From positions 7,087 to 39,231 of the forward strand of contig JALHQM010000016.1 in the NCBI GenBank assembly GCA_022841965.1: a DNA stretch of 32,145 bases, read 5' to 3'. Source of the stretch: Hyphomicrobium sp. Its GTDB lineage: Bacteria > Pseudomonadota > Alphaproteobacteria > Rhizobiales > Hyphomicrobiaceae. A model generated the notes under the pieces. The model saw only the letters and a program-made list of their open reading frames with translations. It was not told the DNA's origin and did no database searches. Positions 7,166 through 32,145 of this stretch are shown here, one piece after another (the stretch's first letter is position 1; every line of letters begins with the position of its first letter). A program made the translations under genes and the position numbers.

Positions 7166-8404
7166 TTACGACGACAGCCGCAGGCCGTTGAGCCGCTTAG
7201 CAATGTCCTTGAACGTCAGGCGGAGCGCCGCACCGTCCTCGGCGGGGTAATAGTGCGCCGGCGAAGTCGCGCAGTATTGGAGCGTCGGCACGACGTCAGC
7301 GGGAACCTGGAAGCCCACTGTATAAATCGTAACACCGTTCGCCTTCATCGAGTCGCACAACGCCCGCGCCTGCGTGACCGACGTGCCGTTGGGGTTCTCA
7401 TAGTAGTTGTTGAACATGCCGTCGGTCATCAAGATCGCAACTTTGCGGAAGTCGGTATTGTCGTAATCCACGGGCGTGCTTTCGCTAGGGAATACAGACG
7501 CCCATTGCGGGGAAAGGAGATAAGACGCCCACGCAATCCCGAGATGCCCAGCCGTCATGCCGCTCGCGGACAGCGAAGCGATCGCATCATCCAGCGCATC
7601 GAGGTCGTTCGTCAGCGGCTGGATTTCCGCGGCCGGACAGCTAGCGGAGCGCCGGTTCAGCTTGTCGGTCACAGGGCTTGCGTCGGTGAAGGCATTGGTG
7701 CCCCGCCGCTCGGTGACGCATGAGGTATAGCGCCCGGGCAATGACCGCCCGCGTGAGTCGGTACCGTTTGAGATGGTCGCGGCAAGATCACCGGCATTCA
7801 CCGCGGTAGAGAACGGCGCAATAGCCACCTTGTTCGAGTGCGGCACATCGGCCGGCAGCAAGATCTCGATGAGGTCCGCGGCAGCAAGTTTCAGATCTTC
7901 AATTTTTGATCCAGCCATCGATCCACTGACGTCCAGCATCATCGAGACCTCGACATCCTTGACGTCGAACACGGCCTCAGCGTTCAAGGTCAAATCGAGA
8001 TAATTGGTACCGGTAATGGCCATGATGGTCGTCGGCACGCGGACGTTGGCGACCAACTGGACGCTGTTGTCTTCGCGATTGGGCGTCACCGTAACACCTT
8101 GGACAAGGGCATTTGCGGCATTTTGCTGGAAATTCGTATTGAAATACTCAAGCACCAGCGCTGTGAGCTCAGCGTCGGTCGGATTGCTCAATCGCAGAGC
8201 CTTCGCCCCCGCCAGCGCCGCCGCATCAAGAGCGCTAGCCGCCATGCTCGAGACCCGGCTCCCGCGCGCCGTATCGACGCTCATGCCAACGGCAACTGTG
8301 ATGACCAGCATCATCAGTCCGAAGATGGGAGCGATGGCCCCCGATTCGGATGTGTGGAACTTCAGCAGAGACTGTTTAACGCGGGACATGTTTTTATCTG
8401 CCAT
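7166..8404 (-). CDS. TadG-like pilus-associated protein with von Willebrand A domain
   Basis: 412 residues from ATG 8404; an alternative ATG is at 8389, and neither has a strong ribosome site. The N-terminus (FHTSESGAIAPIFGLMMLVITVAVGM) is a TadE/TadG-type segment, with one hydrophobic helix at about 23-42 followed by VDTARG. A von Willebrand A domain follows, with the metal-ion site DVSGS (D158, S160, S162), a threonine in SGMTAGH (T284) and an aspartate in MTDG (D328). All MIDAS residues appear present. Family members sit in the envelope and are linked to Flp/Tad pili or adhesion. No other tad gene is in this window, so it is an orphan here. It is transcribed alone, with a terminator just downstream and another upstream. 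Confidence 0.87.
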   Translation of the reverse strand: MADKNMSRVKQSLLKFHTSESGAIAPIFGLMMLVITVAVGMSVDTARGSRVSSMAASALDAAALAGAKALRLSNPTDAELTALVLEYFNTNFQQNAANALVQGVTVTPNREDNSVQLVANVRVPTTIMAITGTNYLDLTLNAEAVFDVKDVEVSMMLDVSGSMAGSKIEDLKLAAADLIEILLPADVPHSNKVAIAPFSTAVNAGDLAATISNGTDSRGRSLPGRYTSCVTERRGTNAFTDASPVTDKLNRRSASCPAAEIQPLTNDLDALDDAIASLSASGMTAGHLGIAWASYLLSPQWASVFPSESTPVDYDNTDFRKVAILMTDGMFNNYYENPNGTSVTQARALCDSMKANGVTIYTVGFQVPADVVPTLQYCATSPAHYYPAEDGAALRLTFKDIAKRLNGLRLSS

Positions 8405-8590
8405 CCAGAGTTGATGCGTTAAAGCTAGCCCTCCAGATGTAAACAAAATATTGCATTAATTAAATCGAGAGGCTGATTGGATCGAATTCGAAATATCCGG
8501 GTTATTTTTATAAAAACAGAAATGATCAAATGTTGTCGGCACCGGAAAGACAAAGCTAACCATCCGGGGGCGAACTCAACGAGCCCTCAA

Positions 8591-8617
8591 AGGAAAAGGC
8601 CCCGCATCGCGGGACCT
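8591..8617 (-). terminator. Intrinsic terminator for the 1112-residue membrane protein gene
   Basis: Stem AGGCCCCG / CGGGACCT (8597-8604 and 8610-8617, one G-U type pair) has a 5-nt loop. On the minus strand it is followed by TTTTCCTTT. It lies about 30 nt after the stop of the large minus-strand gene. Confidence 0.75.
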
Positions 8618-8646
8618 CTCGGTAAATTCAGGGGATCGGGTATGTT

Positions 8647-11600
8647 CTAATTGGGTCGCCGCTGCCCAGCATCCCACCGATAGTCGCCGGGTGGCGCGCT
8701 CTCCGCGAAATCCTCGATAAGGCCGCTCAGCTTCTGCCAATCACCACCGTCGCTGCGTCCAATCTTGCTTAATTGAGATTCATGTAACTTAAGCCGTTGC
8801 AGCAATTGCTTGCCCTTGAGGTCGAGATCGCCCGCACCGTCTTCTGCCTCCAGGCTTCCAATGAGCTTGAGCACGATTTCCTGGTATCGCCCGCCCTGGA
8901 TCAGGAGCAACGCCGGCAGGATCTGCCGCAGCTGGTCGGCAACAGAATCTATAGCTTCGCTTGGAAATTCCTCGTGCCGCAGCGCGCTCGCCGCAAGATC
9001 GAGTTCCTCATTCAACTCCTGTAGATCGGTATCGATATGGACGCCGATGGTACGCTGCTGCTGGCAAAGCCGCCGCAGTTGCTCGCCCAGAACATTGGCG
9101 TGTTCAAGTGCGCCGGTCCCGGCGAGATCGCGGTAGATCGACGGCGCAACACCCATGCCCATCATGAGTCGCTGCCGGATAACTTTGAGATCGACGTCTT
9201 TGCGCGGCGGATGCACAACGGCGGTTACCGGGTCGTCGGCAGGGAGATTGGCGAGGTGATGCTCCAGCGCAGGCGGCGTCGCATCGAGCCGGCCGCCGGC
9301 AATCGGTGCGCTCGCTCGCCGCCCCTGATCAAGCTGATAACTCCCAGACGTAAACAGCGACCGCGCCCTGAGGCGCGCCAGAGTCTGGTAGAGATCGCGG
9401 TGGATGAAATAGTGCGAGCCCGCAGCGTCGGTGCGTTGCACCCGCTGATGCACGGACCCGGCATTCAAGAGCTGACGCACCACGCGCTTGTCGGTGTCGT
9501 CCGTCACCTCCGCCAACTTGATCTCGGCCATGAACCCATGCTTCTCGGTAATCGGATGCATGTATGAGAGAACGGTGTCGATGTTACGCGCAACGTCCGG
9601 CAACAGAGCAACGGAAACGGTCTTCTCCATGTCGGCAATGGTGGCGTGCTGCGCGTTCGCCTGGAACGCCTTCTTCGAGATGCCCGACAGAAACTCGAAC
9701 AATTCTGCCCGCACCAGATACCGGTCCTGCTCGTGATCGAATTCGACCGCGTGGATCGTCGTGCCAGCATTGAGCACGCCCAGAACCCGCTCTGCACTTT
9801 GCGGATCGAGCCGCTCTGGGCGCACCTCGGCCATGAATCCGCGGTCGTTCGTGATCGGTCGCATCGCCATCAGCGTCACGCGCGCGGTCTCGAACGTATC
9901 GGGAAGCAGCGCGTTCTCAATGATGCCTTCCAGCTGTTCTGCGGTCCGCGCCTTGCTCGTCGGCACGTCGGAAAGCGGTGAGCGCACGGCATTGGCGCCG
10001 AACAGACCGGACATGAAGATCAAGCTGTCGATCGCAATGGCGATGCCGAGCGCCAAATAGGCCAGCCGGTTGCCATCTTGGAAGGCGTTGATCGACACCA
10101 CGAAGTTGTGCGCCTTGTCGTCCCGGTTGAGCTCGATGAAATTGATCTTCGTGCGTAGCGTATCGGTATCGATGGACGGCAGTCCGCTATCGGCAAGGCA
10201 GCGCCGGGAAAAGCCAAGCAGAGCGTCAGTCGACGTGTTGGCGTTGAGCTTGTCGCCGCCAATACAGGTGGCGGCAAAAACCTGCGCGCCGGTATCGAGC
10301 GCTAACAGCAGCTGTGCCGCTTCCTGCGCGCGCTTGGGATCGCAATCGATGGCCGCCACGCGCTCCTTCGTCTTCGGCGTCGATATCATGGCGTTCAAAA
10401 GCTGCGAGCACTGCTCCTGGACGGACTTCAAGCCCGCTCCGTCGGGCTTTTGCCGGAAGGCGACGCGCGCGGCTTCAAACTCCGGCAAGACCCGCGCAGG
10501 GTCAACCTTTGGCAACGCGTCGGCTTGGCGGGCCGGCTCGCTGGCAGCCGCAATGCGCTGCTGGGCCGTATCCGCTTCCCCTGTGAGCTTGGCGAGACTC
10601 CCGTCGATGCCGGCCAATTCCCGCCTGATGGCATCGATGCGGCCGCTGGTCTCGTCCACGCGCTTTTGCGCGTCCCGCACCCGCTGCTCACCGATCTTGT
10701 AATAATCTTGCAGCTTACCGAGTTCGGCCAACCGTTCCCGATAGATCTGCCCGCGGCCGACCTTCAGCGTTCCTTCGACACCCTTCTCCTCGGCCATGGC
10801 CTCGACGCGCTTGGCGTCAACTTCCTTAGCGCGTGCATCCAGGTCGCTCTTTTTCGTCTGCAATTCGGCAACGAGCCCCGGGCGCTCCGCCTCGAGCCGC
10901 GCAACCTCTTCCGTGAGCGACGCCTTTTTCAGCGACAATCCCGCCTGACTGCTCTGCGCCGTGGCGATCCGCTCCTGCTGCTCGGCAATCCCGCGCCGCC
11001 GCTCTTCCATCTGCTCGACGTAGAACGCTTCGATGAGCTTCTCCGCCCCGCGTGACGCCGTCGCCAGCTTGTCGAGTTCACCGTCGTAAGCGAGCCATCC
11101 TTCGGACTTGAACAGAGCGTCCGCCGCATCGAAGCGGCGCGTCTCGATCGTCTGACCAATATCTGCGACAATGCCAGCGACTTGGTTTTGCGCGCGCAGT
11201 TCCGCCGCCCGCACGCGCTCCTCCTGCGGGAAGATCGCATTGAACCGGCTGTCGAACGAAAAGAACACCGATGACGCCATGCACGCGAGAAACATCACCC
11301 ACAACATCGCATTCTTCGCGATCACACGCGTCGATTGCAGATAGGGCTTCACCACGTCGCTGGCCGAATAGAGCGCCACGAGTGCTGCCACCAGCAACCC
11401 AACCACGATGATCAGCAAGCCGTCGCCCGTCGCCATGGGGGTTTGCGCACCCGCGCCGTCGCCGCCCATCAGTGAACCGCGAAACAGGAACATGGCAGCG
11501 AGGGTCACAAACAGAAGGACGCCGATGAGGCCGCCCATGGCAGCCTGCACCGGCCGGGGCAGCGTGCCCGAATGCCCGGCCGCCTTCTGGCTCATGCCGG

Positions 11601-11985
11601 TCGCGAAGCTTTCGCCGATCAACCAAGCAATGATCAACATAATGCCTTGAATGCCGAACGTGATCATGAACGAGAGCACCGGCTCGTTCGTGAAGTTCCG
11701 CATCCCGTCCCATGTCGTCCAACCCGAAGCGAGCGATAGGACGATGCCGGTTGTGCCAAGCAACGCCAGCCGCCAGTTAGTGAAGAACACGTCTTCAATG
11801 GCCTTCCAGATCCGCGGCATGATGCGGTAGAGCCCCGCGAGCGCCAACAGGATCGCGACACCCAAAAAGATCTTGGCTGAAAGCGCTTGTACGGCAGCGG
11901 GGTCCTGCAAAGCCGAAACATCCGGCCAAGCCATGCCGGACGGCGGGCCAACGGCCGGTGAGGTGGGAACAGTCGTCTCAGCCAT
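8647..11985 (-). CDS. Large unrecognised membrane and coiled-coil protein with internal duplication
   Basis: 1112 residues from ATG 11985, with AGGGG about eight bases upstream. I do not recognise a family. Residues 1-245 contain about six membrane helices (near 36-53, 72-88, 103-125, 148-168, 188-208, 225-243). Residues 320-480 are charged and heptad-like, with many Glu, Arg, Gln and Ala, and are probably coiled coil. Another hydrophobic helix lies at about 641-661. Residues 685-775 and 786-878 are two copies of one domain, sharing ALLPD, PIT(N/E)(D/K)xGFMAE and LNAG in the same order. The last 230 residues are soluble and helical. The layout suggests an inner-membrane scaffold or sensor with cytoplasmic or periplasmic repeats. 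It is a single-gene unit with its own terminator, and base use resembles its neighbours. Confidence 0.85.
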   Translation of the reverse strand: MAETTVPTSPAVGPPSGMAWPDVSALQDPAAVQALSAKIFLGVAILLALAGLYRIMPRIWKAIEDVFFTNWRLALLGTTGIVLSLASGWTTWDGMRNFTNEPVLSFMITFGIQGIMLIIAWLIGESFATGMSQKAAGHSGTLPRPVQAAMGGLIGVLLFVTLAAMFLFRGSLMGGDGAGAQTPMATGDGLLIIVVGLLVAALVALYSASDVVKPYLQSTRVIAKNAMLWVMFLACMASSVFFSFDSRFNAIFPQEERVRAAELRAQNQVAGIVADIGQTIETRRFDAADALFKSEGWLAYDGELDKLATASRGAEKLIEAFYVEQMEERRRGIAEQQERIATAQSSQAGLSLKKASLTEEVARLEAERPGLVAELQTKKSDLDARAKEVDAKRVEAMAEEKGVEGTLKVGRGQIYRERLAELGKLQDYYKIGEQRVRDAQKRVDETSGRIDAIRRELAGIDGSLAKLTGEADTAQQRIAAASEPARQADALPKVDPARVLPEFEAARVAFRQKPDGAGLKSVQEQCSQLLNAMISTPKTKERVAAIDCDPKRAQEAAQLLLALDTGAQVFAATCIGGDKLNANTSTDALLGFSRRCLADSGLPSIDTDTLRTKINFIELNRDDKAHNFVVSINAFQDGNRLAYLALGIAIAIDSLIFMSGLFGANAVRSPLSDVPTSKARTAEQLEGIIENALLPDTFETARVTLMAMRPITNDRGFMAEVRPERLDPQSAERVLGVLNAGTTIHAVEFDHEQDRYLVRAELFEFLSGISKKAFQANAQHATIADMEKTVSVALLPDVARNIDTVLSYMHPITEKHGFMAEIKLAEVTDDTDKRVVRQLLNAGSVHQRVQRTDAAGSHYFIHRDLYQTLARLRARSLFTSGSYQLDQGRRASAPIAGGRLDATPPALEHHLANLPADDPVTAVVHPPRKDVDLKVIRQRLMMGMGVAPSIYRDLAGTGALEHANVLGEQLRRLCQQQRTIGVHIDTDLQELNEELDLAASALRHEEFPSEAIDSVADQLRQILPALLLIQGGRYQEIVLKLIGSLEAEDGAGDLDLKGKQLLQRLKLHESQLSKIGRSDGGDWQKLSGLIEDFAESAPPGDYRWDAGQRRPN
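9352..9630 (-). repeat. Second copy of an internal domain duplication
   Basis: Residues 786-878 of the 1112-residue membrane protein. Shared landmarks with the first copy are ALLPD, MHPITEKHGFMAEI (against MRPITNDRGFMAEV), LLNAG (against VLNAG) and a closing RDLYQTLARL (against AELFEFLSGI). Similarity is clear in protein and not obvious in DNA, so the duplication is old. Confidence 0.8.
9661..9933 (-). repeat. First copy of an internal domain duplication
   Basis: Residues 685-775 of the 1112-residue membrane protein. It precedes the second copy by about ten residues and begins about 24 residues after the last predicted membrane helix. Confidence 0.8.
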
Positions 11986-12336
11986 GTCAGAAACCCCTGC
12001 AACCTCAAGCGGTGCGTTTGCGGTCAGTGTTCGTTCGGGTCACGCCCCGTCCGCACGTATAGCCCGCTTCAACCCCGGAACGGCCTTGTCCGTGTGATCC
12101 GTCGCACGAGTTGCCAATTCAAGGTCGTACGGCGTCTAAATTGCGGCGCGCGACACTTGAAGCTAATTAAAGTTTATTCACTCCGGGCCGGCCACGTCTT
12201 GTCAATCCCGGTCGCACCGAAGTCAGCACCAATATCCTTGGCTCGGACACCTGTTATGATATAACTATAACCGTCCTCGGTCTGGACAGAACCGGGGACC
12301 GGCTAAAGGCAGCAAGAACGGCAGCAAGGGTGAACA
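11986..12336. promoter_or_regulatory. Divergent promoter region between the large membrane protein gene and zur
   Basis: 351 bp without a credible gene. It must hold promoters for the leftward 1112-residue protein gene and the rightward zur-znuCB operon. The right part contains the Zur-type operator at 12253-12265. An AT-rich patch near 12160-12180 (CTAATTAAAGTTTATTC) stands out against the GC-rich surroundings and may be promoter DNA. Confidence 0.6.
12253..12265. promoter_or_regulatory. Zur-type operator upstream of zur-znuC-znuB
   Basis: GTTAT-GAT-ATAAC is a perfect palindrome of 5-bp half sites, the form expected of Zur boxes in alphaproteobacteria. It is followed at once by another TATAAC. 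It lies 72 nt before the zur start, where a repressor would block the promoter. This implies zinc-dependent autoregulation. Confidence 0.82.
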
Positions 12337-12873
12337 ATGAGCGAAACTCAGGCCCCAACCAAGTCCGACGCGAACCAGCGGTCACCCTTTCCCAACCCCG
12401 ACCAGCAGACGGCCAAAAAGCTCGCTCAGACAGTGGAGCGCGCCGCCAAAGTCTTCGCCGATAAGAGCTTGCGCTTTACCAAACTGCGCCAGCAGGTCTT
12501 CGAGGAAATCGCCGCCACCCACGCCTCAATCGGAGCCTATGAAATTCTGGCCCGCCTCGGCGACAAAGGCACCCGCGTCGCCCCCATCTCGATCTACCGC
12601 GCCATCGATGCGCTGCTTGATGCCGGCGTCATCCATCGCCTCGAAAGCAAAAACGCCTTCTTCGCCTGCCGCCGAACCGACCACACGGTCAAAGGCCGCC
12701 GCCCCATCTTTCTATCGTGCGAGAAATGCGGCGCCGTCGGCGAAGTCGATGGCCAGCACATTTTCGATCTGATTGGCGAAGCCGCGAAGGAAGCGAAATT
12801 CACGCCGCGCATCAAGTTCGTCGAGGTCCAAGGCCTCTGCCCGCGCTGCACGGCCGCCGCTGAAAAAGCCTGA
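12337..12873 (+). CDS. zur: Zinc uptake regulator Zur (Fur family)
   Basis: 178 residues from ATG 12337, preceded by AAGGGTG. A Fur-type winged helix spans about residues 45-105 (RFTKLRQQVFEEI, then ISIYRAIDALLDAGVIHRLES). The dimerisation domain carries two CxxC pairs, CEKC (C128, C131) and CPRC (C168, C171), which hold structural zinc in Zur and Fur proteins. With zinc bound it should repress zinc import genes. It is first in an operon with znuC (30 bp gap) and znuB, directly behind a Zur-type palindrome. That context makes Zur far more likely than Fur, Mur or PerR. Gene order zur-znuC-znuB is common in Rhizobiales; here znuA lies elsewhere. Confidence 0.95.
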   Translation: MSETQAPTKSDANQRSPFPNPDQQTAKKLAQTVERAAKVFADKSLRFTKLRQQVFEEIAATHASIGAYEILARLGDKGTRVAPISIYRAIDALLDAGVIHRLESKNAFFACRRTDHTVKGRRPIFLSCEKCGAVGEVDGQHIFDLIGEAAKEAKFTPRIKFVEVQGLCPRCTAAAEKA

Positions 12874-12903
12874 CGCTCCGGACCAGACGGGAGATCTGAA
12901 CGA

Positions 12904-13773
12904 ATGACCGGCGCGACACCCGCTGAGACCGCCCATGACCATGATCACGGCGACGACTGTGCCTGTGGTCACGACCACGGCCCCGCAAAGCCATTCGACA
13001 CCGCAGCCCTCATTTCAGCCCGCGGCCTCACACTCATGCGCGGCGATCGCCTCATCCTCGATCACGTCGACGTTGACATCCACCCCCGAGAGATCGTCAC
13101 CCTCATCGGCCCCAACGGCTCCGGTAAAACGAGCCTCGTGCGCGCACTCCTCGGCGTGCAAGAACTCACCGGTGGCGAGATTAGCCGCGTCGAAAGGCTA
13201 AAAGTCGGCTACGTCCCGCAACGGTTCGATATCGACCGCGCGCTGCCGATGACGGTCGCCCGCTTCCTCTCCCTTGGCCACAAAGCGCCGCCGAGCGCAC
13301 TGAGCGCGGTTCTCGCCGAAGTCGGCGCCGAACGCTGCTTCGGCCAGCAGTTGAGCGAACTCTCCGGCGGCGAACTCCAGCGCGTTCTTCTCGCCCGCGC
13401 CCTCGTCGCCAATCCCGAACTCCTCGTCCTTGACGAACCCGTCCGCGGCGTCGACTACACGGGCGAAGCCGATCTCTACGCCCTCATCGGCAATCTGCGC
13501 GACAAGCGCGGCATCGGCGTCCTGCTCGTCTCCCACGACCTGCACGTCGTCATGGCCCAGTCCGATCGCGTTCTTTGCCTGAACGGCCATATCTGCTGCT
13601 CAGGCGTCCCTGAAACCGTCGCCCAGCATCCCGAGTACATGCGCCTCTTCGGCCCCGAGACGGCGCGCGCCTTCGGTGTTTATCGCCACCATCACGACCA
13701 CGCCCACGGCCTCGATGGCCGCGAACTGCGAGGCGCACACGATCACGGTCACAGCCACGGGGACGCCCTGTGA
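12904..13773 (+). CDS. znuC: Zinc ABC transporter ATPase ZnuC
   Basis: 289 residues from ATG 12904, with GGGAGA upstream. It is the ATPase that drives zinc import through ZnuB. Walker A is GPNGSGKT (69-76), the signature LSGGE (153-157), Walker B LLVLDEP (173-179) and the H-loop histidine is H211. Both ends are histidine-rich: AHDHDHGDDCACGHDHG at about 10-26 and YRHHHDHAHG plus AHDHGHSHGD at about 260-287. These tails probably bind zinc and may buffer it or sense it; that is inference. The gene overlaps znuB by four bases. Confidence 0.95.
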   Translation: MTGATPAETAHDHDHGDDCACGHDHGPAKPFDTAALISARGLTLMRGDRLILDHVDVDIHPREIVTLIGPNGSGKTSLVRALLGVQELTGGEISRVERLKVGYVPQRFDIDRALPMTVARFLSLGHKAPPSALSAVLAEVGAERCFGQQLSELSGGELQRVLLARALVANPELLVLDEPVRGVDYTGEADLYALIGNLRDKRGIGVLLVSHDLHVVMAQSDRVLCLNGHICCSGVPETVAQHPEYMRLFGPETARAFGVYRHHHDHAHGLDGRELRGAHDHGHSHGDAL

Positions 13774-14558
13774 TCGAGCCGTTTCTTCTGCGCGCGCTGG
13801 CCGCCGGCATTGGCCTCGCGATCATCGCCGCCCCGCTCGGCGCCATTCTCGTCTGGAACCGCATGGCCTACTTCGGCGAGACGGTGGCCCAAGCGAGCCT
13901 CGTCGGCGTCGCACTCGGCCTCCTGCTCAACATTGATGTCACACTCAGCGTCATCGTCACGACGCTCGCCGTCGCGTCTCTACTCATTGTGCTTGGCCGT
14001 CAGAAGCTCGTCCCACTCGATGCCATCCTCGGCCTCACCCATCACGGCACGCTGGCCCTCGGCGTCATCGCCACCGCCCTCATCGCCGGCCCGTCCGTCG
14101 ACCTGATGGGCTACCTTTTCGGCGACGTCTTTGCCGTCACGGAAGGCGACCTCTGGCTCATCTACGGCGGCGGCGCTGTCGTCCTCACCGTCATGGCCTG
14201 GCTCTGGCAGCCGCTCCTGCGCGTCGCCGTGCATGAGGAATTGGCCTCCGCCGAAGGCGTCCCCAGCCGCCGCGTCCGCGCAGCCTTCATCGTCGTCTTG
14301 GCACTCACCATCGCCATTGCCATGAAAATCGTCGGTGTGCTGCTCGCCATTGCCTTTCTGATCGTGCCCATCGTCGCTGCGCGCCCCTTTGCCGCCACCC
14401 CCGAAGGCCTTGTGGTCACAGCCGCCACCGTCGGCGCGGCCAGCGTTGCCCTAGGTCTCGCCTTCTCGTCCAATGTCGATGCGCCCGGCGGCCCGTCGAT
14501 CGTTCTCTGCATGGCCTTGATCGCAGGAGTGTCTCTCGCCATTTCCAGCCGCCGCTAA
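13770..14558 (+). CDS. znuB: Zinc ABC transporter permease ZnuB
   Basis: 262 residues from GTG 13770, whose last two bases share the znuC stop (GTGA overlap), so translation is coupled. The protein is almost entirely hydrophobic, with about seven to eight membrane helices. It shows the ABC-3 family segments [20 protein letters not shown] (about 31-50) and, later, [20 protein letters not shown]. It forms the inner-membrane channel that accepts zinc from ZnuA. It is last in the zur operon; the next gene, ispG, starts 91 bp later and is probably transcribed separately or by read-through. Confidence 0.95.
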
Positions 14559-16120: not shown

Positions 16121-16492
16121 TCAGCACGCGGTCGCGAACGGCAGTTCCGGCTCATCGGCCCGCTCGCCGGCCAAAGGCGCGACGACCGGGAACGCAATAA
16201 TGTTCGTGTGCTCGGAGACGTCGATGCCGGCGCGGCGCTGACGGAACCAGCGGAGCGACGTGTTCGTCATCACCGCATCTTCCTTCACCGGCTGGATCAG
16301 GAGACCATCATCGGTCTCGAGGTACCGGCCGAGCCAGGTTTCGAGTGTCTCTTCGCTTTCGTCCGAGCGCACGTACCACGTGTTCTCCAGCGGACGCGCC
16401 CAGCTCGAGCCGAGGCTCATGATGGCGTGGGCGACAACGTGCTTGGAAACGTGGGGCTTCGCGAGGTCGTAGGAGATGAGGTAGGTGCGCAT
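16121..16492 (-). CDS. Small Cas2/VapD-like (SinR-type) protein with a LexA-type box upstream
   Basis: 123 residues from ATG 16492, with AAGGAG eight bases upstream. The start MRTYLISYDLAKP has the hydrophobic strand followed by YDL and proline seen in Cas2, VapD and stand-alone SinR-family proteins, which share a ferredoxin-like fold. The next segments, HAIMSLGSSWARPLENTWYV (about 22-41) and DDGLLIQPVKEDAVM (about 61-75), fit the helix and later strands. The last 40 residues are probably disordered. No cas1, effector or repeat array is nearby, so it is not part of a CRISPR system. Relatives include nucleases and toxins, but activity here is unproven. A GAAC-N7-GAAC box lies 75-89 nt before the start, which suggests SOS control. 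Fold assignment is by eye. Confidence 0.78.
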   Translation of the reverse strand: MRTYLISYDLAKPHVSKHVVAHAIMSLGSSWARPLENTWYVRSDESEETLETWLGRYLETDDGLLIQPVKEDAVMTNTSLRWFRQRRAGIDVSEHTNIIAFPVVAPLAGERADEPELPFATAC

Positions 16493-23788: not shown

Positions 23789-26700
23789 TCAATGGAAGTC
23801 CCGGGATTTTGGGATCACGCGCTCTTCGCGCGGATGCATCGGCCGCGGCCGCACCGCAAGACCGCCGCGCGACCATCGCGGATGCCCCTCCACCTCAGCA
23901 GTCTGCGGTTCGGGCCCCGGACTTTTCACCTCGTCCGCATTGGCGATCGGGATCGGCATTGCATTCCCCCACTCCGACAGGAGCATCAGCCAATCGCTGC
24001 GATCCTCCAGATGGTTCGACACCACATGAATGATGCTCTCGTGCCTCTGGATGCGTCCCGAAATCACCATCAACCGCGCCTGCATCACCGTCTTGCGGTA
24101 CTTTTCCAGCATCTTCGGCCACACGACCGCGTTGGCGACCCCGGTTTCGTCTTCGAGCGTCATGAACACGACGCCCTTGGCCGACCCTGGCCGCTGCCGC
24201 ACCAGTATGACGCCGGCCACCTTCACGAACTGCCCGTCGCGCAGCCCCCGCAACTCCTGGCAGGTCACCACCCGCTCCGCCCTAAGCCGTCCGCGCAGGA
24301 AACTCATCGGGTGTGCTTTGAGCGACAGCCGCAACGTCTGGTAGTCGTTCACGACATGCTCTGAGAGCGCCATCTGCGGCAACGCGACCTCCGGCTCTGC
24401 TCCCGTCTCGCGCGCCGCACTCCACGAAAAAAGCGGCAGCGGCGGCGCGTTCGCCAGCGCCGTCACCTCCCACAGCGCCTGCCGCCGGTCGAGACCGATC
24501 GAACGAAACGCATCCGCCGCCGCGAGCTTTTCCAGCGTCGGCAACCGCAACGCCGCCCGCTGCCACAGATCGTGCACCGAACTGAACCCGCCCCGCGCCC
24601 GCGCCGCCACGAGTTTGCCGATCTCCACCTCCTGCAACCCATCGATCTGCCGCAACCCAAGCCGCAGCGCCGGCCCGCCCTCGCAGACGTCCTCCAGCGT
24701 CGAATCCCACTCGCTGCAATTGATGTCGGCGGCCCGCGCCTCCACGCCGTGCTCGCAGGCATCCCGCACGATCTGCGCCGGCGCGTAAAATCCCATCGGC
24801 TGCGAGTTCAACAGCGCACACGCGAACGCCGCCGGATAATGGCACTTCAGCCACGACGACACGTAGACGAGATGCGCAAAGCTCGCCGCATGGCTTTCTG
24901 GAAAACCATACTCGCCAAAGCCCTTGATCTGATTAAAGCAGCGCTGGGCGAACTCGCGATTGTATCCGCGCGCCGTCATCTGCTCGACCATCTTTTCTTC
25001 CAAAAGCCAGATCGTCCCGCGCCGCCGGAACGTCGCCATCGCCTTGCGCAGATCGTTGACGTCCTCATCCGAAAACTTCGCCGCCTCCATGGCGATCCGC
25101 ATCGCCTGCTCTTGAAACAACGGCACACCCTTCGTCTTGCCGAGGATCTGTTTCAATTCATCCGCCGGCCCATGCTCCGGTGCCGGCGATGGATAGATCT
25201 CCGGCTCCACCCCCGAGCGCCGCCGCAAATACGGATGCACCATATCGCCCTGGATCGGCCCGGGCCGCACGATCGCAACCTCGATGACGAGATCGTAGAA
25301 ACAGCGCGGCTTCAATCGCGGCAGCATGTTCATCTGCGCCCGGCTCTCCACCTGGAACACGCCGATGGAATCCGCCCGGCACAGCATGTCGTAGGTCTCG
25401 GCATCCTCGCGCGGCACCTTGGCGAGCGTCATGTCAAGCCCGTGATGGCCCTTCAAGAGTTCGAACGCACGCCGGATGCACGACAGCATCCCGAGCGCTA
25501 AGATATCGACCTTCAACAGCCCGAGCGCTGCGATGTCGTCCTTGTCCCACTCGATGAAGGTGCGGTCATCCATCGCCGCGTTGCCGACCGGAACCATCTC
25601 GATCAGCGGCCCCCGCGTTAAAACGAACCCGCCCACATGCTGCGACAGATGCCGCGGAAACCCGATCAACTCCTCCGTCAGTTCCAGAACCGTCGCGAGC
25701 AGCGGATCGGTCGGATCGAGGCCCGCCTCGCGCACGCGCGTGTCTCCCAAAACACCGCCCGACCGCGTGCCCCACACCATGCCGGCCAGCGCCGAAACGG
25801 TATCCTCCGACAACCCCATCGCCTTGCCCACATCCCGCACCGCCGACCGCGCGCGATACGAAATCACGGTCGCCGCCAACCCCGCCCGGTCACGCCCGTA
25901 GCGCGCATAGATGTATTGAATGACCTCCTCGCGCCGGTCGTGCTCGAAATCGACGTCGATGTCCGGCGGCTCCTTGCGCGCATGGCTGACGAACCGCTCA
26001 AACAGCAGGTTCACCTCCGTCGGATTCACCGCCGTAATCCCGAGGCAATAACACACGACTGAGTTCGCCGCCGATCCGCGCCCCTGACAGAGAATGCCGC
26101 GCGACCGTGCGAACGCGACGATATCGTGGACGGTCAGAAAGTAGGGCGCATAGTTAAGATCGGCGACAAGCTGCAACTCGCGCTCAATCGTCGTCCGCAC
26201 CTTATCCGGAACGCCCTCCGGAAAACGCCACGCCGCCCCCTCCCACGCCAACGCCTCCAGATGCGCCTGCGCCGTTATCCCATGCGGCACAGGTTCATCG
26301 GGATACTCATAAACAAGTTCATCGAGCGAAAACTGGCACGCGTCCATGATCTCGATGGTCCGCGCGACAGCCTCTTCATATCCACGAAACAGCCGCACCA
26401 TCTCCGCGGGCTTCTTCAAATGCCGCTCCGCATTCGCCGCCAGCAGGTAACCCGCCCCATTGATCGTCGTGTGGTCGCGCACGCACGTGAGAACATCCTG
26501 CAGCGGACGCCGATGCAGCGCGTGATAGAGCACAGCGTTTGTTGCAACCAGCGGCGCACCGCACGTCCGCGCCAGCGCCGCAAGCGCCCCCATCCGCGCC
26601 CGGTCATCGCCGCGAAATCCATGCGACGCTGCAAGATAAAGGGTCGCTCCCGCCAGCGCATCGCGCACCCGCCGCAGCTCTGTCTCGAACGCATCGCCAA

Positions 26701-27082
26701 TCGTATCGGGAGGAACAGCAATAAAGATGTTGCCCTCCGCGTGCGCCGCCACATCGGCCAGCCGCAACAGACACTGCCCTTTCGTAGCCCGGCTCTGCCC
26801 CAGCGAAATCAGCCGCGACAGCCGCCCATAAGCGGCGCGGTTCGTCGGCAGGCATAAGAGGCTCGGCGCATCGGCCAGATCGAGCCGCGCGCCGGGAATA
26901 TAACGCAACCCCACCGCCTTCGCCGCCGTGTGCGCGCGCACGATCCCGGCGAGCGTATTGCGGTCGGTCACGGCAATGGCGTCCAGCCCCAACGCCTTCG
27001 CCTGTGCGACAAGCTCATCCGCATGCGACGCCCCGCGCAGGAACGAGAAGTTCGTTGTGACATCGAGTTCAGCGTAACGCAT
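23789..27082 (-). CDS. dnaE2: Error-prone DNA polymerase DnaE2
   Basis: 1097 residues from ATG 27082, 13 bp after the imuB stop. An open extension to 27388 lies inside imuB. It is the C-family polymerase of the SOS translesion complex. A PHP domain fills about 1-205, beginning MRYAELDVTTNFSFLRGASH. The usual HxH metal pair of the replicative enzyme is replaced there, as common in DnaE2. The palm carries PDIDVDF (D374, D376), the conserved catalytic pair, and HDRREEVIQYIYARYG. An OB-fold near the C-terminus (about 985-1060) includes KVAGVILVRQRPGSAKGVVFMTLED. Full length, no frameshift. It is third in the imuA-imuB-dnaE2 operon, so it should follow the LexA box upstream of imuA. Confidence 0.96.
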   Translation of the reverse strand: MRYAELDVTTNFSFLRGASHADELVAQAKALGLDAIAVTDRNTLAGIVRAHTAAKAVGLRYIPGARLDLADAPSLLCLPTNRAAYGRLSRLISLGQSRATKGQCLLRLADVAAHAEGNIFIAVPPDTIGDAFETELRRVRDALAGATLYLAASHGFRGDDRARMGALAALARTCGAPLVATNAVLYHALHRRPLQDVLTCVRDHTTINGAGYLLAANAERHLKKPAEMVRLFRGYEEAVARTIEIMDACQFSLDELVYEYPDEPVPHGITAQAHLEALAWEGAAWRFPEGVPDKVRTTIERELQLVADLNYAPYFLTVHDIVAFARSRGILCQGRGSAANSVVCYCLGITAVNPTEVNLLFERFVSHARKEPPDIDVDFEHDRREEVIQYIYARYGRDRAGLAATVISYRARSAVRDVGKAMGLSEDTVSALAGMVWGTRSGGVLGDTRVREAGLDPTDPLLATVLELTEELIGFPRHLSQHVGGFVLTRGPLIEMVPVGNAAMDDRTFIEWDKDDIAALGLLKVDILALGMLSCIRRAFELLKGHHGLDMTLAKVPREDAETYDMLCRADSIGVFQVESRAQMNMLPRLKPRCFYDLVIEVAIVRPGPIQGDMVHPYLRRRSGVEPEIYPSPAPEHGPADELKQILGKTKGVPLFQEQAMRIAMEAAKFSDEDVNDLRKAMATFRRRGTIWLLEEKMVEQMTARGYNREFAQRCFNQIKGFGEYGFPESHAASFAHLVYVSSWLKCHYPAAFACALLNSQPMGFYAPAQIVRDACEHGVEARAADINCSEWDSTLEDVCEGGPALRLGLRQIDGLQEVEIGKLVAARARGGFSSVHDLWQRAALRLPTLEKLAAADAFRSIGLDRRQALWEVTALANAPPLPLFSWSAARETGAEPEVALPQMALSEHVVNDYQTLRLSLKAHPMSFLRGRLRAERVVTCQELRGLRDGQFVKVAGVILVRQRPGSAKGVVFMTLEDETGVANAVVWPKMLEKYRKTVMQARLMVISGRIQRHESIIHVVSNHLEDRSDWLMLLSEWGNAMPIPIANADEVKSPGPEPQTAEVEGHPRWSRGGLAVRPRPMHPREERVIPKSRDFH

Positions 27083-27095
27083 CACACAGCGACCC

Positions 27096-28748
27096 TCAGA
27101 ACAAACCATGCAGGAACCAGCGCGGTTGGCCCGCCGCATCCGCCGCGCCATAAAACCCCTCGCGGAACATCCAGAATCGCGCCCCGTCGCCCGTCTCGGC
27201 GACGTAGTAATCGCGCGTCTTTTCGCGCTGGGCCGGATCGGCGATCTCCCCGTCGAGCCCGTCATCCGGCGGCACCACATCGGGATGCGAAAGCTGCCGC
27301 CACCACTCCGGCGCGATCCGCTCCGGCCCCGCCGCCTTTGCCACCGCATAGGCCACCCGCCGCCATGTAAACCGCAACGGCGGCCCATCCGGCACTTCCG
27401 CCATCACGCTGATCGCCTCGGGTGGCGACAGCAGCAGAAACGGCCGCTCGCCCGGCGCCACGCCCGGCAATCCGCCGCTCTCCATGAACGGGGCCAGCGG
27501 TGCCATCCGCCTCGCTGCCTGTTCGGGAATGTGGCTCGCGCGCGGAGCGAGCCGGAACACGTTCTTGGCACCCAGCCGGTTCGCGAGCCGATCGACAAGC
27601 GCTGCGATCGCCTGCTCGGGTGCTGCTCCGCCCCGCCCGAGCGTGGCCTGCTCTGGATCGAGCGGCTCCACCAGAACCGCATCGAGCACGGCGACATCGA
27701 TGCCGAACCCCGCGTCGATCCCGGCCAGCTTTTCAAGGAGCAAGCGCAGAACGTGCGCCGCCTCCGCACTCGCCCGCGCCATGCCCGCCTCCGCATGCGC
27801 CACCGTGCCGTCGGCGCGATAAAGCGACAGAGCGATCCGCCGCGCGCCCAGCCCCGCCGCCTTCAGTGCGCATGCAAGATCTTCCGCCAGCAGGCCCACT
27901 TCCGAGACAAGCGCCTCCGATGAAATGAGTGGCTCGCCCCATGAGCGCCGCTCCGACAGAACCGGCGGCTCACCGAGCGGCGCCCGCGGTTCTTGCCTCC
28001 GCCCCAACGCCTGATCGAGCCGCACCAGAACCGCGTCTGCCAACCCTTTCGCTTTGGCTTGACCTCCCTTGGAGCGTGACGACGCCTCCGACGCAAAGCG
28101 CCGCTCCAGGCTCACACGCGGCAACTCCGCCAGATGTCCGATCTTGGCAAGCCCCAGCCGCCGCAGCAAAACCACCGTATCCGGCGCCAGCCGCAGCGCT
28201 TCGACCGGCAATCCCGCCAGCGCTGTGAGCGTTGCCGCCTCCCCCGCCGGCGCCAGCACCGCGCTGCGCCTTTGGGTCGCAAAACGCGCCAGCGCGAAGG
28301 CTGCCCCTGGCGTACCGGCCAGACCCACCCGCGCGGTAATGCCGAAATCCAAAAGCCGCCGCACAAGATCATCCAGCAGCGCCGCCTCTCCACCGAAGAG
28401 ATGCGCAACACCTGTCGTATCGATCCACACGCCGTCATCGCACTCGACGTTGCGATTGGGGCCGTAACGTCCAAGCCAGAGCGCAAGACGCGTCAAGGCC
28501 CGCGCATCCCGCTCCATCTCGGCCGGATGCGACACGAGGATCGGCACCGCCGCCCGCGCATCCGCAAGGCTCATCCCTGACCGCACGCCCTCCCGCGCCG
28601 CGCGTGTGTTGACGGCCGTGATGCGGATGCCGTGCGCACCGCCAGCGACGAGCGCGAAAGGTTTGTCATCCGGCACGGCGCCGGGCCGGTGCCGTTTCAG
28701 CCGCTCGATCGGCCATTGCGGCAGCCACACGGAAACGAGACGCTTCAT
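27096..28748 (-). CDS. imuB: Y-family polymerase-like mutasome subunit ImuB
   Basis: 550 residues from ATG 28748, starting MKRLVSVWLPQWPIERLKR, the usual ImuB opening. It has a Y-family polymerase fold but has lost catalytic acids. The first motif WLPQWP has no Asp where a polymerase has DxDxF. The second reads GVWIDTTGVAHLF, without the DE pair. It therefore acts as an adaptor linking DnaE2 and ImuA to the sliding clamp. I could not see a clear QLxLF clamp motif in it. The gene overlaps imuA by 83 bp and its stop lies 13 bp before dnaE2, whose ribosome site overlaps its end. Confidence 0.94.
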   Translation of the reverse strand: MKRLVSVWLPQWPIERLKRHRPGAVPDDKPFALVAGGAHGIRITAVNTRAAREGVRSGMSLADARAAVPILVSHPAEMERDARALTRLALWLGRYGPNRNVECDDGVWIDTTGVAHLFGGEAALLDDLVRRLLDFGITARVGLAGTPGAAFALARFATQRRSAVLAPAGEAATLTALAGLPVEALRLAPDTVVLLRRLGLAKIGHLAELPRVSLERRFASEASSRSKGGQAKAKGLADAVLVRLDQALGRRQEPRAPLGEPPVLSERRSWGEPLISSEALVSEVGLLAEDLACALKAAGLGARRIALSLYRADGTVAHAEAGMARASAEAAHVLRLLLEKLAGIDAGFGIDVAVLDAVLVEPLDPEQATLGRGGAAPEQAIAALVDRLANRLGAKNVFRLAPRASHIPEQAARRMAPLAPFMESGGLPGVAPGERPFLLLSPPEAISVMAEVPDGPPLRFTWRRVAYAVAKAAGPERIAPEWWRQLSHPDVVPPDDGLDGEIADPAQREKTRDYYVAETGDGARFWMFREGFYGAADAAGQPRWFLHGLF

Positions 28749-29721
28749 GGGACCATTCCAAAATCATTGCTGCTTCGGTCGCGGGTGGCGCCGAGCGGCA
28801 GCGCTCGAGCCGCACGGCAAGCCGCGCGACACCCGGCGCCCTGGGATCAAACGGATGCGCACCACTCACCGCCGGATCGATCCGCCAGCGCGTGGCGGTC
28901 GCAGCACTGGGCGCCGAGCGTGCGCTGGTCAGCAAAAGCAGCGGTGTCGCCCCGTCCCGCGCCGCCAGACTGAGACGTCGCGCTGGCGTCAGCCCGATCG
29001 AAGACAGCGCCCCGACCGCCAGCGCCAGGCTGCCCGAGCGCAGGCCTTCTTCCAGAGCCCAAAGCACGTCGTCCTCGCGCCGGCCGTCGATGAAAAGGAA
29101 TGATGAGGCCGCAAGCCCGAAGCGCGCCAAACCGGGAGGATACAAAGACCCCGTATCGAGCATCGTGCGCGGTGACGTGCACCACAGAATGCGCGGCAGA
29201 CCTTGCCCGGCGCGCGTGGCCCCATCGAGCCGCCGCTTCGCCAGCGCCAGAGCGAACGCCAGCGCCGCCGCGCGCGACGCCGCCTTTGCCGATTGAGGTT
29301 TGAGTTCGTGACAGGCCGCCGTATCGAGCGCCGTGGCTCCAATAAGCGCATCCACCTCCGGCGCGCCGAGCGACCAAGCCGCCGTCCGCGGTCCTGCGCC
29401 AAGTCCAGCCGGCATCTCGCACGCGGGACGCTCCTCGCCGATCCCCCCCTCGCCAATCCCCTGCCTGATCTCGAGCTTCGGCCGCTCGATGGCGAGAATG
29501 CGTTGGCGCAAGATTTCAAGGCTGTCTCTCTGCACACCCGCCGCCGGGGGCGCCGGAGCAGCCACTGAGAGGGCGCTGCTCCGGCGCGGGGGCACCCGGG
29601 GAGACAGGTACGCAACAGAACGCATCTCCCCGGATAAACTCACAAACTCATCTGAATCCTCATTGGGCGCGGGCCTTGGCAGCGCGGACGGGAGATCGAG
29701 GGGGTGGGCCGCCTTGTCCAT
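28666..29721 (-). CDS. imuA: Mutasome protein ImuA (RecA/SulA-like)
   Basis: 351 residues from ATG 29721; a TTG at 29739 would add six residues, and neither has a strong ribosome site. ImuA is the RecA-like partner in the ImuA-ImuB-DnaE2 complex. Segments visible include LRQRILAIERPKLE (near 65-80), AWSLGAPEVDALIGA, AALAFALALAKRR and RILWCTSPRTMLDTGSLYPPGL (about 180-200), typical of this family. There is no intact Walker A. The first 65 residues are a low-complexity, proline-rich extension. A perfect LexA-type box lies about 100 nt upstream. The gene leads the SOS operon and overlaps imuB by 83 bp in another frame. Confidence 0.9.
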   Translation of the reverse strand: MDKAAHPLDLPSALPRPAPNEDSDEFVSLSGEMRSVAYLSPRVPPRRSSALSVAAPAPPAAGVQRDSLEILRQRILAIERPKLEIRQGIGEGGIGEERPACEMPAGLGAGPRTAAWSLGAPEVDALIGATALDTAACHELKPQSAKAASRAAALAFALALAKRRLDGATRAGQGLPRILWCTSPRTMLDTGSLYPPGLARFGLAASSFLFIDGRREDDVLWALEEGLRSGSLALAVGALSSIGLTPARRLSLAARDGATPLLLLTSARSAPSAATATRWRIDPAVSGAHPFDPRAPGVARLAVRLERCRSAPPATEAAMILEWSHEASRFRVAAAMADRAAETAPARRRAG

Positions 29722-29772
29722 GGGCTTAAACGCTCGCAACGGGGGTTCACAACAAAGACGCCACGCAACAAT

Positions 29773-31027: not shown

Positions 31028-32029
31028 CTACGATTGCAGACACGTCGTCAATCCCTGCGCCAGATTGCGCAACAGCGCCGCGTAGGCACCATCTCCCGCG
31101 TCGACAGACGCGCCTTCCGGATCCAATGTCCCAGCCTTCGCCCCTGTTCCTTCGATCACCGTCGCAACGAGCTTCGACTTGAACTGCGGCTCGGCAAAAA
31201 CGCAGGCCACACCGAGTGTTTTGATCTTGCCGCGGATCTCTGACAGCCGCTTCGCTGATGGCTGCACCTCCGGTGAAACCGTGATGGCCCCCGCCGCCGT
31301 CAGCCCGAAGCGTGCCTCGAAGTATTGATACGCGTCGTGGAACACCACGAACGATTTCCCCTTCAATGGCGCCAAAGCGGCATCGATCTCCTTGGCCAGC
31401 GCATCGATACCCGCAATCGTCTTTTCGCCGTTCGCTTTGAAGACCGCCGCATGCTCGGGCGCGGCCTCGGACAACGCGCGAGCGATCTCGCCCACCATCG
31501 CGACCGCGTTTTGCGGATCGAGCCACACGTGCCCGTCGCGCACAGGGCCGTGGTCGTGATCGCCGTGGCTGTGATCGTCATGCCCGTGGTCGTGCGCTTC
31601 GAACGTGTCGCCCCGGCGCTTGTCGAGCAGTTTCAGCCCTGGTGAGTTGGCCAGCGTCACGACCGTGACGGTCTTAGGCAACGACGCGACGATCCGGCGG
31701 GTGAACGGCTCGATCTCCTCCGAAACGCGAAACACCACCGTCGCTGCATTGAGCGCGCGGGCGTCCGACGGCTTCAGCGAGTAGGTATGCGGCGAAGCGG
31801 CCCCGCCGACCAGCAGACGCGGTTCACCCACGTCCCCCATCACCTGCGTCACGAGCGAGTGAATAGGCTTGATCGTCGCCACGACCTTCAAATCCTCGGC
31901 CCTGGCGGTCCCGGACGCCAGCAGCGCTGCCGCGAGGGCGGACGCGGCGGCAGTCCGTCGATAAAAACGGCTTAACTGAATGATATAACGAGCGTTTTCT
32001 GCCGGGGTGCCCGGTTGTGCCGTCGTCAA
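31028..32029 (-). CDS. znuA: Periplasmic zinc-binding protein ZnuA
   Basis: 333 residues from TTG 32029. This start is chosen because AGGAGGG lies seven bases upstream and it puts a Zur-box-like site 34-45 nt before it. The frame is open to 32128, where ATG codons lack ribosome sites. A signal sequence ends at about residue 44 (ASGTARA-EDLK), with a long N-region. Zinc ligands are H81 (ASPHTYSLKP), H167 (DGHVWLDP), H231 (VFHDAYQYF) and D303 (GTLDP). A histidine-rich loop lies at about 146-161 (AHDHGHDDHSHGDHDHG). Two Cys (C276 in GVACVFAEPQF, C330 near the end) fit the ZnuA disulfide. It delivers zinc to ZnuBC, encoded about 17 kb away. The role is firm; the TTG start is less certain. Confidence 0.93.
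   Translation of the reverse strand: MTTAQPGTPAENARYIIQLSRFYRRTAAASALAAALLASGTARAEDLKVVATIKPIHSLVTQVMGDVGEPRLLVGGAASPHTYSLKPSDARALNAATVVFRVSEEIEPFTRRIVASLPKTVTVVTLANSPGLKLLDKRRGDTFEAHDHGHDDHSHGDHDHGPVRDGHVWLDPQNAVAMVGEIARALSEAAPEHAAVFKANGEKTIAGIDALAKEIDAALAPLKGKSFVVFHDAYQYFEARFGLTAAGAITVSPEVQPSAKRLSEIRGKIKTLGVACVFAEPQFKSKLVATVIEGTGAKAGTLDPEGASVDAGDGAYAALLRNLAQGLTTCLQS
31978..31989. promoter_or_regulatory. Possible second Zur-box-like site in the znuA 5' region
   Basis: The plus strand reads GAATGATATAAC. Its last nine bases, TGATATAAC, are identical to the zur operator at 12257-12265, while the other half site is lost. It lies inside the signal-peptide codons if znuA starts at TTG 32029. Confidence 0.35.
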
Positions 32030-32062
32030 GCGATAACCCTCCTGAGAATGGATCGATGCAAT

Positions 32063-32074
32063 GGATAGTATAAC
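32063..32074. promoter_or_regulatory. Zur-box-like operator upstream of znuA
   Basis: On the minus strand this reads GTTAT-ACT-ATCC, matching GTTAT-N3-ATAAC with one half site weakened. It stands 34-45 nt before the proposed znuA start, a normal repressor position. Confidence 0.6.
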
Positions 32075-32145
32075 ATCCAACTTGCGCCACATGGCAAACG
32101 TATGGCCAGTGCGGCACGAATCCACCAACCGCCAACCGCCAACCG

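Follow-up and report, generated by a model that had tools for sequence, protein, structure and literature searches.

The gene at positions 8647-11985 of a 32,145-nt stretch of Hyphomicrobium sp. DNA (assembly GCA_022841965.1, contig JALHQM010000016.1, positions 7,087-39,231 of the forward strand; the whole stretch is called the window hereafter) codes for a membrane protein of 1112 amino acids, P0001, that probably joins the cell envelope to something cytoplasmic. Our data describe a widely kept envelope protein that combines a recognisable but distant DUF4407-type (PF14362) coiled-coil hairpin with a new, probably winged-helix, output domain. The gene is real: its frame runs on the minus strand from an ATG at 11985 to a stop codon at 8647, and it has homologues. 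It is nearly universal, strongly conserved and unnamed in the genomes of Hyphomicrobiaceae that were examined, and the present analysis gives it a concrete architecture.

The first-pass annotation, made from the sequence alone, had reported an architecture that it could not assign. This holds insofar as no family of Pfam, NCBIfam, PHROGs or PADLOC claims P0001, for which these collections gave sub-cut-off, mostly coiled-coil matches and no curated family. It no longer holds for the hairpin and its tip, which are homologous to DUF4407, or for the duplicated domain, which resembles winged-helix domains. The profile search proposed at that time for the repeats was run with consensus sequences of both repeats, and likewise of the four-cysteine domain, the membrane part and the C-terminal domain; no Pfam match rose over the cut-off, and three of these consensus sequences had no match in NCBIfam. 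A sequence search of the PDB returned no match for P0001, and coiled-coil and helical-bundle matches for the family profile. Proteins of the SMC type and other coiled-coil ATPases matched weakly over the P0001 coiled coil only (SMC_prok_B at 8.3e-5, profile positions 287-475 of 1181, and neighbours in the PDB). Unlike SMC-type ATPases, P0001 has no match to an ATPase head in Pfam or NCBIfam and its coil is predicted to be periplasmic, and a relationship to SMC was rejected, the match being confined to the coiled coil and no ATPase family being found.

Domain order and the DUF4407-like hairpin

The search for relatives of P0001 returned 109 sequences, from which 80 loci were kept. Alignment A1 holds 26 of 30 loci (P0001 representing L001; the near-identical L003 and the cut or interrupted L017, L022 and L025 were left out), and alignment A2 has 63 rows, namely 62 of the 80 loci and the window, the 18 others being near-duplicates or truncated, interrupted or oddly started frames (the interrupted frames among the 80 loci are L061, L064, L088, L099 and L103). 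Alignment A3 additionally leaves out L104.

In the AlphaFold2 model of P0001 (63 sequences, mean predicted local distance difference test, pLDDT, of 81.1) the six N-terminal membrane helices, the long coiled coil and the further hydrophobic helix reported earlier are all borne out. The membrane-type helices lie at residues 29-69, 71-99, 102-131, 144-172, 184-208 and 226-251, and a plain hydropathy analysis at a strict cut-off detects five of them, helix 2 being under the cut-off. They are followed by the hairpin (254-401/413-482), a helical domain (496-619), the seventh transmembrane helix (TM7, 640-666), the two repeats, a linker and a C-terminal bundle. The acidic helical bundle at 928-1095 is a third domain, absent from the first-pass annotation. 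The four-cysteine domain, the repeats and the C-terminal bundle are modelled with high confidence, and the hairpin has block pLDDT values of 59-81 over 321-480, its tip (49) excepted. The membrane and hairpin parts are highly conserved and the C terminus is variable. Fold searches with the full model were dominated by coiled coils, so that the membrane and four-cysteine parts were barely probed by fold.

Table 1. Features of the gene, its product and its flanks (window coordinates; residues are those of P0001).
Feature	Position	Strand	Basis or remark
TadE/G-like protein with von Willebrand A domain	7166..8446	minus	PF13400 and PF00092; 200 bp downstream; a neighbour, not a shown part of the system
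Intrinsic terminator: 12-bp stem, 3-nt loop, U-rich 3' side	about 8594..8620	minus	z -3.4
Whole gene, 1112 aa, stop codon included	8647..11985	minus	homologues found
Residues 29-251: membrane helices 1-6; N terminus predicted outside; E125 (in ..WLIGES..) invariant	11233..11901	minus	model, conservation, loop charges
Residues 252-485: predicted periplasmic coiled-coil hairpin, related to DUF4407 over 350-431	10531..11232	minus	model, profile comparison
Residues 398-416: hairpin tip AEEKGVEGTLKVGRGQIYR	10738..10794	minus	G402, G410 and G412 in 73/73 rows
Residues 490-639: helical domain, invariant C526, C548, C574 and C596, predicted periplasmic	10069..10518	minus	model, conservation
Residues 640-666: TM7, invariant D653 near middle	9988..10068	minus	model, conservation
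Residues 682-777: repeat 1, winged-helix-like	9655..9942	minus	profile and model comparison
Residues 778-884: repeat 2, winged-helix-like	9334..9654	minus	profile and model comparison
Residues 885-927: linker, predicted disordered	9205..9333	minus	pLDDT <50 over 882-928
Residues 928-1112: variable acidic helical bundle and tail	8650..9204	minus	model, conservation

In regards to orientation, the mean number of lysines plus arginines (K+R) per sequence, not scaled for length, is 3.3, 2.3 and 2.4 before TM2, TM4 and TM6, respectively, and 0.7-0.9 in the N-terminal segment and in the TM2-TM3 and TM4-TM5 loops, a distribution that would place the N terminus, the hairpin and the four-cysteine domain outside and the repeats inside. 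The four cysteines are identical in all 73 rows compared, which fits with an oxidising compartment, and the domain that carries them is probably disulfide-bonded. Taken together, loop charges and invariant cysteines point to a coiled coil on the outer side of the membrane and a doubled domain on the inner side. The short homologues (811-827 aa, family f33) lack TM1, TM4 and TM5 and have a helix count of 3+1, both judged by eye, and carry a lysine-rich segment at the place where the cytoplasmic loop is expected. Upstream of these short homologues we also observed a similar-looking protein of about 1200 aa (L133 9660-13256, L134 2970-6635, L138 9858-13514), whose L133 copy has no Pfam match at 0.001.

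The relationship to DUF4407 emerged from the distant homologues. L133 matches PF14362, for which the curated cut-off is 31.3 bits, at 5.1e-6 and 26.4 bits, the best value of the eight members scanned, and L134, L138, L141 and L137 match over the same hairpin stretch at 1e-5 to 4.6e-4; hence, of seven distant homologues scanned one at a time, five match the profile, with 20.0-26.4 bits and all below the cut-off. For a direct comparison of profiles we assembled ten DUF4407 proteins, five from four loci named by Pfam or by record annotation and five relatives from a protein search. With hhalign, the family of the window aligned with the DUF4407 profile over residues 350-431 at a score of 68.1 and a probability of 93.7. 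None of 100 shuffles of seven-column blocks, which preserve much of the heptad pattern, reached that score (mean 21.4, maximum 42.0), and the reversed profile gave 24.7. When the tip was cut out the score was still 45.1 (probability 49.2), and 40 shuffles gave no more than 24.0. These controls show that the likeness exceeds that of a generic coiled coil, and by profile comparison the hairpin and glycine-rich tip of the P0001 family are homologous to DUF4407.

DUF4407 proteins also carry their coil between membrane helices and have a tip of the E..G..GTG..G.GP.Y type, as does the P0001 family, where the three tip glycines are invariant. Their last membrane helix bears an aspartate or glutamate in nine of the ten proteins (by eye), and D653 inside TM7 is identical in 73/73 rows. 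However, P0001 differs from the ten DUF4407 proteins by three extra membrane helices, the four-cysteine domain and the winged-helix-like pair, none of which were seen there, and the likeness rests on the hairpin and tip, the membrane parts being without confident alignment and all eight members scanned lying below the Pfam cut-off. Pfam identifies a protein kinase domain at the C terminus of a DUF4407 protein of a Rhodococcus plasmid (L172), and a second such plasmid protein has a stretch that aligns with it, which gives a precedent for a variable C-terminal output on the DUF4407 plan; the winged-helix-like output of P0001 would occupy the role of that kinase. DUF4407 would thereby come to include far larger proteins whose cytoplasmic output differs, which suggests that the hairpin serves as an exchangeable module for input from the envelope side.

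At a threshold of 0.001, PF14362 matched 9 of 142 genomes of the class, none over the cut-off; further searches gave matches in 22 of 299 genomes of the phylum, 3 of them over the cut-off, and, at 1e-7, in 2 of 78 genomes of one order. A scan of viral contigs with L152 gave no relative. In the excerpts of the literature that were available the name DUF4407 occurs in table rows only, with no function stated. The Rhodococcus plasmid genes (L172 1917-4403, L173 234-3876) follow a gene for a NYN-domain protein, and L173 has two DUF4407 genes in tandem. A DUF4407 gene is also carried by Lak phages of Prevotella (L175-L178), where the standard code gives no open reading frame (ORF) of 250 aa at the gene and reading TAG as glutamine gives one of 418-431 aa.

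The duplicated domain

Two copies of a domain of about 90 residues, sharing ALLPD (residues 692 and 793), GFMAE (716 and 817) and LNAG (738 and 840), had been noticed in the first-pass annotation, and the sequence comparison leaves this as a true duplication. The repeats share 27 identities in 91 columns, with a local score of 104 that none of 1000 shuffles reached (mean 25.2), and their profiles match each other with a probability of 99.8. The GFMAE motif had been taken as a conserved binding or structural core, which the alignment does not support. Across the 63 rows of A2 the glycine is kept (G716 97%, G817 92%) and, less so, the phenylalanine (F717 68%, F818 87%) and the glutamate (E720 68%, E821 62%), while every residue at the M and A positions stays below 60%. 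The motif, which sits on a beta hairpin in the model, is intact in only some of the relatives.

A profile made from both copies found two copies in 61 of the 63 rows and three matches in the remaining two. Beyond these it found two copies in L135 and L136, one in L141 and one weak copy in the short f33 homologues (i-E 3e-5 to 1.3e-4), and later copies split or partial in L137, L139, L140 and L142. Given this variable number, a single ancestral domain was probably duplicated.

Each repeat is modelled by AlphaFold2 as an alpha-alpha-beta-beta-alpha-beta-beta-alpha domain, with block pLDDT >90 nearly throughout, and the structure prediction of the pair that had been proposed earlier (pLDDT 90.0, predicted template modelling score, pTM, 0.56) showed that each repeat resembles a winged-helix domain, at modest structural scores. 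The best VIA-align superpositions were Z 7.0 (2.7 A, 82 residues) for repeat 1 and Z 6.8 (3.3 A, 90 residues) for repeat 2, and all 50 rows for the tandem model remained below the Z of 8 that VIA-align asks. DNA-binding winged-helix proteins make up 38 of these 50 best rows, and the other 12 (six ribosome chains, five methyltransferases and one NLR protein) belong to families that hold winged-helix domains as well. With Foldseek no match to the tandem model was found at E <0.001, and the best were CooA/CRP and CodY at about 0.02 (best E 0.017).

The repeats superpose on the winged-helix domains of CRP/CooA, AspA, ArsR/MarR and the C-terminal part of CodY with Z 4.4-7.0, but differ from them in being acidic on average, without a sequence-family match and fused to a membrane protein. 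By charge counts, with no surface calculation, the mean net charge over 63 rows is -3.5 for repeat 1 and -1.2 for repeat 2, and the putative recognition helices come close to neutral (-0.2 and +0.6, respectively), which would favour binding of protein; in our view the partner is a protein with at least the same likelihood as DNA. For the putative wing segments the mean net charge is about +1, and repeat 2 of P0001 itself is +1. Among 62 members no helix-turn-helix (HTH) family of Pfam gave better than E 0.0022 (SpoIIID, in 2 of the 62), the repeat consensus sequences had no HTH-type Pfam match, and a PDB sequence search with the repeat gave nothing better than E 0.32.

A possible link from envelope to cytoplasm

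We tentatively favour, at somewhat short of an even chance, the reading of P0001 as an inner-membrane transducer or tether that runs from the envelope to the cytoplasm and is built along DUF4407-like lines. In this view the membrane helices, bundled and with the N terminus outside, would hold the coiled-coil hairpin, whose arms of about 70 to 105 residues would project into the periplasm and end in the conserved glycine-rich tip. The chain would then return through the four-cysteine domain to TM7 with its buried invariant aspartate, and TM7 would continue into the cytoplasmic winged-helix-like pair and the acidic bundle. The hairpin tip and the four-cysteine domain could contact an envelope partner or sense the state of the envelope, and TM7 could relay this signal to the pair, recruiting or releasing a cytoplasmic partner that is more likely to be protein than DNA. 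It seems doubtful that the protein represents a whole new class of one-component transmembrane transducer, in which a disulfide-capped periplasmic hairpin of the DUF4407 type controls a tandem winged-helix output in the cytoplasm and the gene is a core gene central to envelope or hyphal growth.

Several observations weigh against the transducer or tether. P0001 itself does not match PF14362, and neither do L135 and L139; the cut-off was reached by none of the eight members scanned, and in the genome of the window the profile finds a match only elsewhere, of the coiled-coil kind and below the cut-off. The DUF4407 set is small, four of its ten sequences being near-identical phage copies, and the membrane segments align with it only when the alignment threshold is lowered to 0.05. 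The model of P0001 has a pTM of 0.49, with low to moderate confidence in TM4-TM5 and the hairpin. The K+R counts after TM6 (3.7) and before TM7 (3.8), both expected outside, exceed the 3.0 after TM7, expected inside. The best Foldseek and VIA-align scores of the repeats are modest, and I-DmoI or an intein endonuclease, of a different fold, takes up 16 of the 50 listed Foldseek rows. Finally, no consistently linked partner gene was found among the loci.

Much of the same evidence could also describe a passive envelope tether or spacer, for example in polar or hyphal growth, whose hairpin and four-cysteine domain bind the cell wall or an outer-membrane partner while cytoskeletal or division proteins are held by the domains in the cytoplasm and no signal is passed. 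This is rather unlikely in our estimation, even if the near-universal presence in Hyphomicrobiaceae (35 of 36 genomes), the strong conservation in the membrane and hairpin regions beside a variable C terminus, and a coiled coil long enough, from the helix lengths of the model, to cross much of the periplasm are all in keeping with it. However, the invariant E125 and D653 in membrane helices exceed the needs of a passive anchor, and relatives are present in 11 further families of the order. These two residues could instead form the ion path of an ion- or proton-coupled machine driving the periplasmic hairpin as motors of the TolQ/ExbB/MotA type do, which we hold to be highly improbable. The invariance of D653 near the middle of TM7, the acidic residue in the last helix of most DUF4407 proteins and a weak GldL match over 192-371 (13.4 bits) point that way, but this match is far under its cut-off of 68.3 bits and covers largely coiled coil, and no motor-type partner gene was seen among the recurring neighbours, not all of which were identified.

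The repeats invite yet another explanation, of a membrane-anchored DNA-binding regulator or chromosome tether whose tandem winged-helix-like domains bind DNA, like an inverted regulator of the ToxR/CadC type. Their structural neighbours are mostly DNA-binding winged-helix proteins (CRP/CooA, CodY, AspA, ArsR and MarR types) and their putative wings are slightly positive. Nevertheless, the acidic repeats, the neutral putative recognition helices and the poor HTH-type Pfam values speak against it, and we regard it as improbable next to a transducer or tether with a protein partner.

Distribution and neighbouring genes

The Hyphomicrobiaceae are known for budding, prosthecate bacteria. The nearest named relatives of P0001 come from metagenome-assembled genomes of Hyphomicrobium (90% identity), and named carriers include H. 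zavarzinii, H. facile and H. sulfonivorans, as well as genomes of Filomicrobium. The gene is present in 40 of the 60 genomes searched, its own included, that is in 35 of 36 from the same family and 5 of 24 from other families. The sole genome of Hyphomicrobiaceae without a match (G013) has only 1.8 Mb, and some matches within the family are fragments (e.g. G032). Across the order 19 of 150 genomes match, from 12 families (its own and 11 others), some as fragments. In a sample of 190 genomes of the class, with at least two others from the same order, the genome of the window alone matched (0 of 189 others). That genome, 88.8% complete as assembled, holds one match. In a tree of 70 rows, made by a quick method and with long branches flagged, the rows from other families fall outside the main Hyphomicrobiaceae-type group, together with L104. 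Searches of 72,556 plasmid and 50,697 phage records with P0001 came back empty, as did one of the plasmid collection with the short form L133, and a plasmid or phage origin was rejected on these results.

The gene-neighbourhood comparison proposed in the first-pass annotation brought up recurring genes but no partner. A von Willebrand A (vWA) gene lies on the same strand within 2.5 kb downstream in 24 of 67 loci (window included; at least 1.7 kb of downstream sequence); 18 of these belong to one secreted-looking family and 6, including that of the window, to a TadG-like family. L135, from another family, also has a vWA gene downstream. A thiolase gene is nearby in 41 and zur in 48 of 81 loci, window included, and functional linkage from neighbours was rejected since these two are at least as often close as the vWA gene, so that common synteny explains its adjacency without a functional link. 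The slot directly downstream holds two kinds of vWA gene (window 7166-8446, L033 11310-12770 and 12926-14206, L072 11376-12749), TadG-like in the near relatives of the window and secreted-looking in others, and L033 has two successive TadG-like copies.

As for the flanks of the gene, the terminator described earlier is present (12-bp stem at about 8594-8620, z -3.4), even if a simple terminator scanner did not list it. The promoter of its own that had been claimed was not recovered, since a scan for sigma-70-type promoters of the gene found none. Upstream, 351 bp separate the gene from a divergently oriented zur-like gene (at 12337; FUR family by Pfam), and the names zur, znuC and znuB for the divergent upstream genes are our own reading. 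These zur-znuC-znuB-like genes are clustered at 12337-14558 of the window, and a znuA-like gene (PF01297) lies some 16-17 kb off on the other strand (31028-32128). A palindrome-like GTTATGATATAAC at 12253-12265, 84 bp before the zur-like gene, recurs in L031 and L032, and as GTTATATTATAAC in L033; we take it as a candidate Zur box. A loose GTTA-palindrome pattern precedes zur in 5 of 48 loci, four of which are the window and three near relatives, and a link to zinc regulation was rejected on this count. Further off, the minus-strand ORFs at 23789-29739 presumably form a mutagenesis cassette of dnaE2, imuA and a Y-family polymerase of the imuB type, and a 123-aa ORF at 16121-16492 on the minus strand (MRTYLISYDLAKP...) has relatives in a cluster of 8 loci, the window included.

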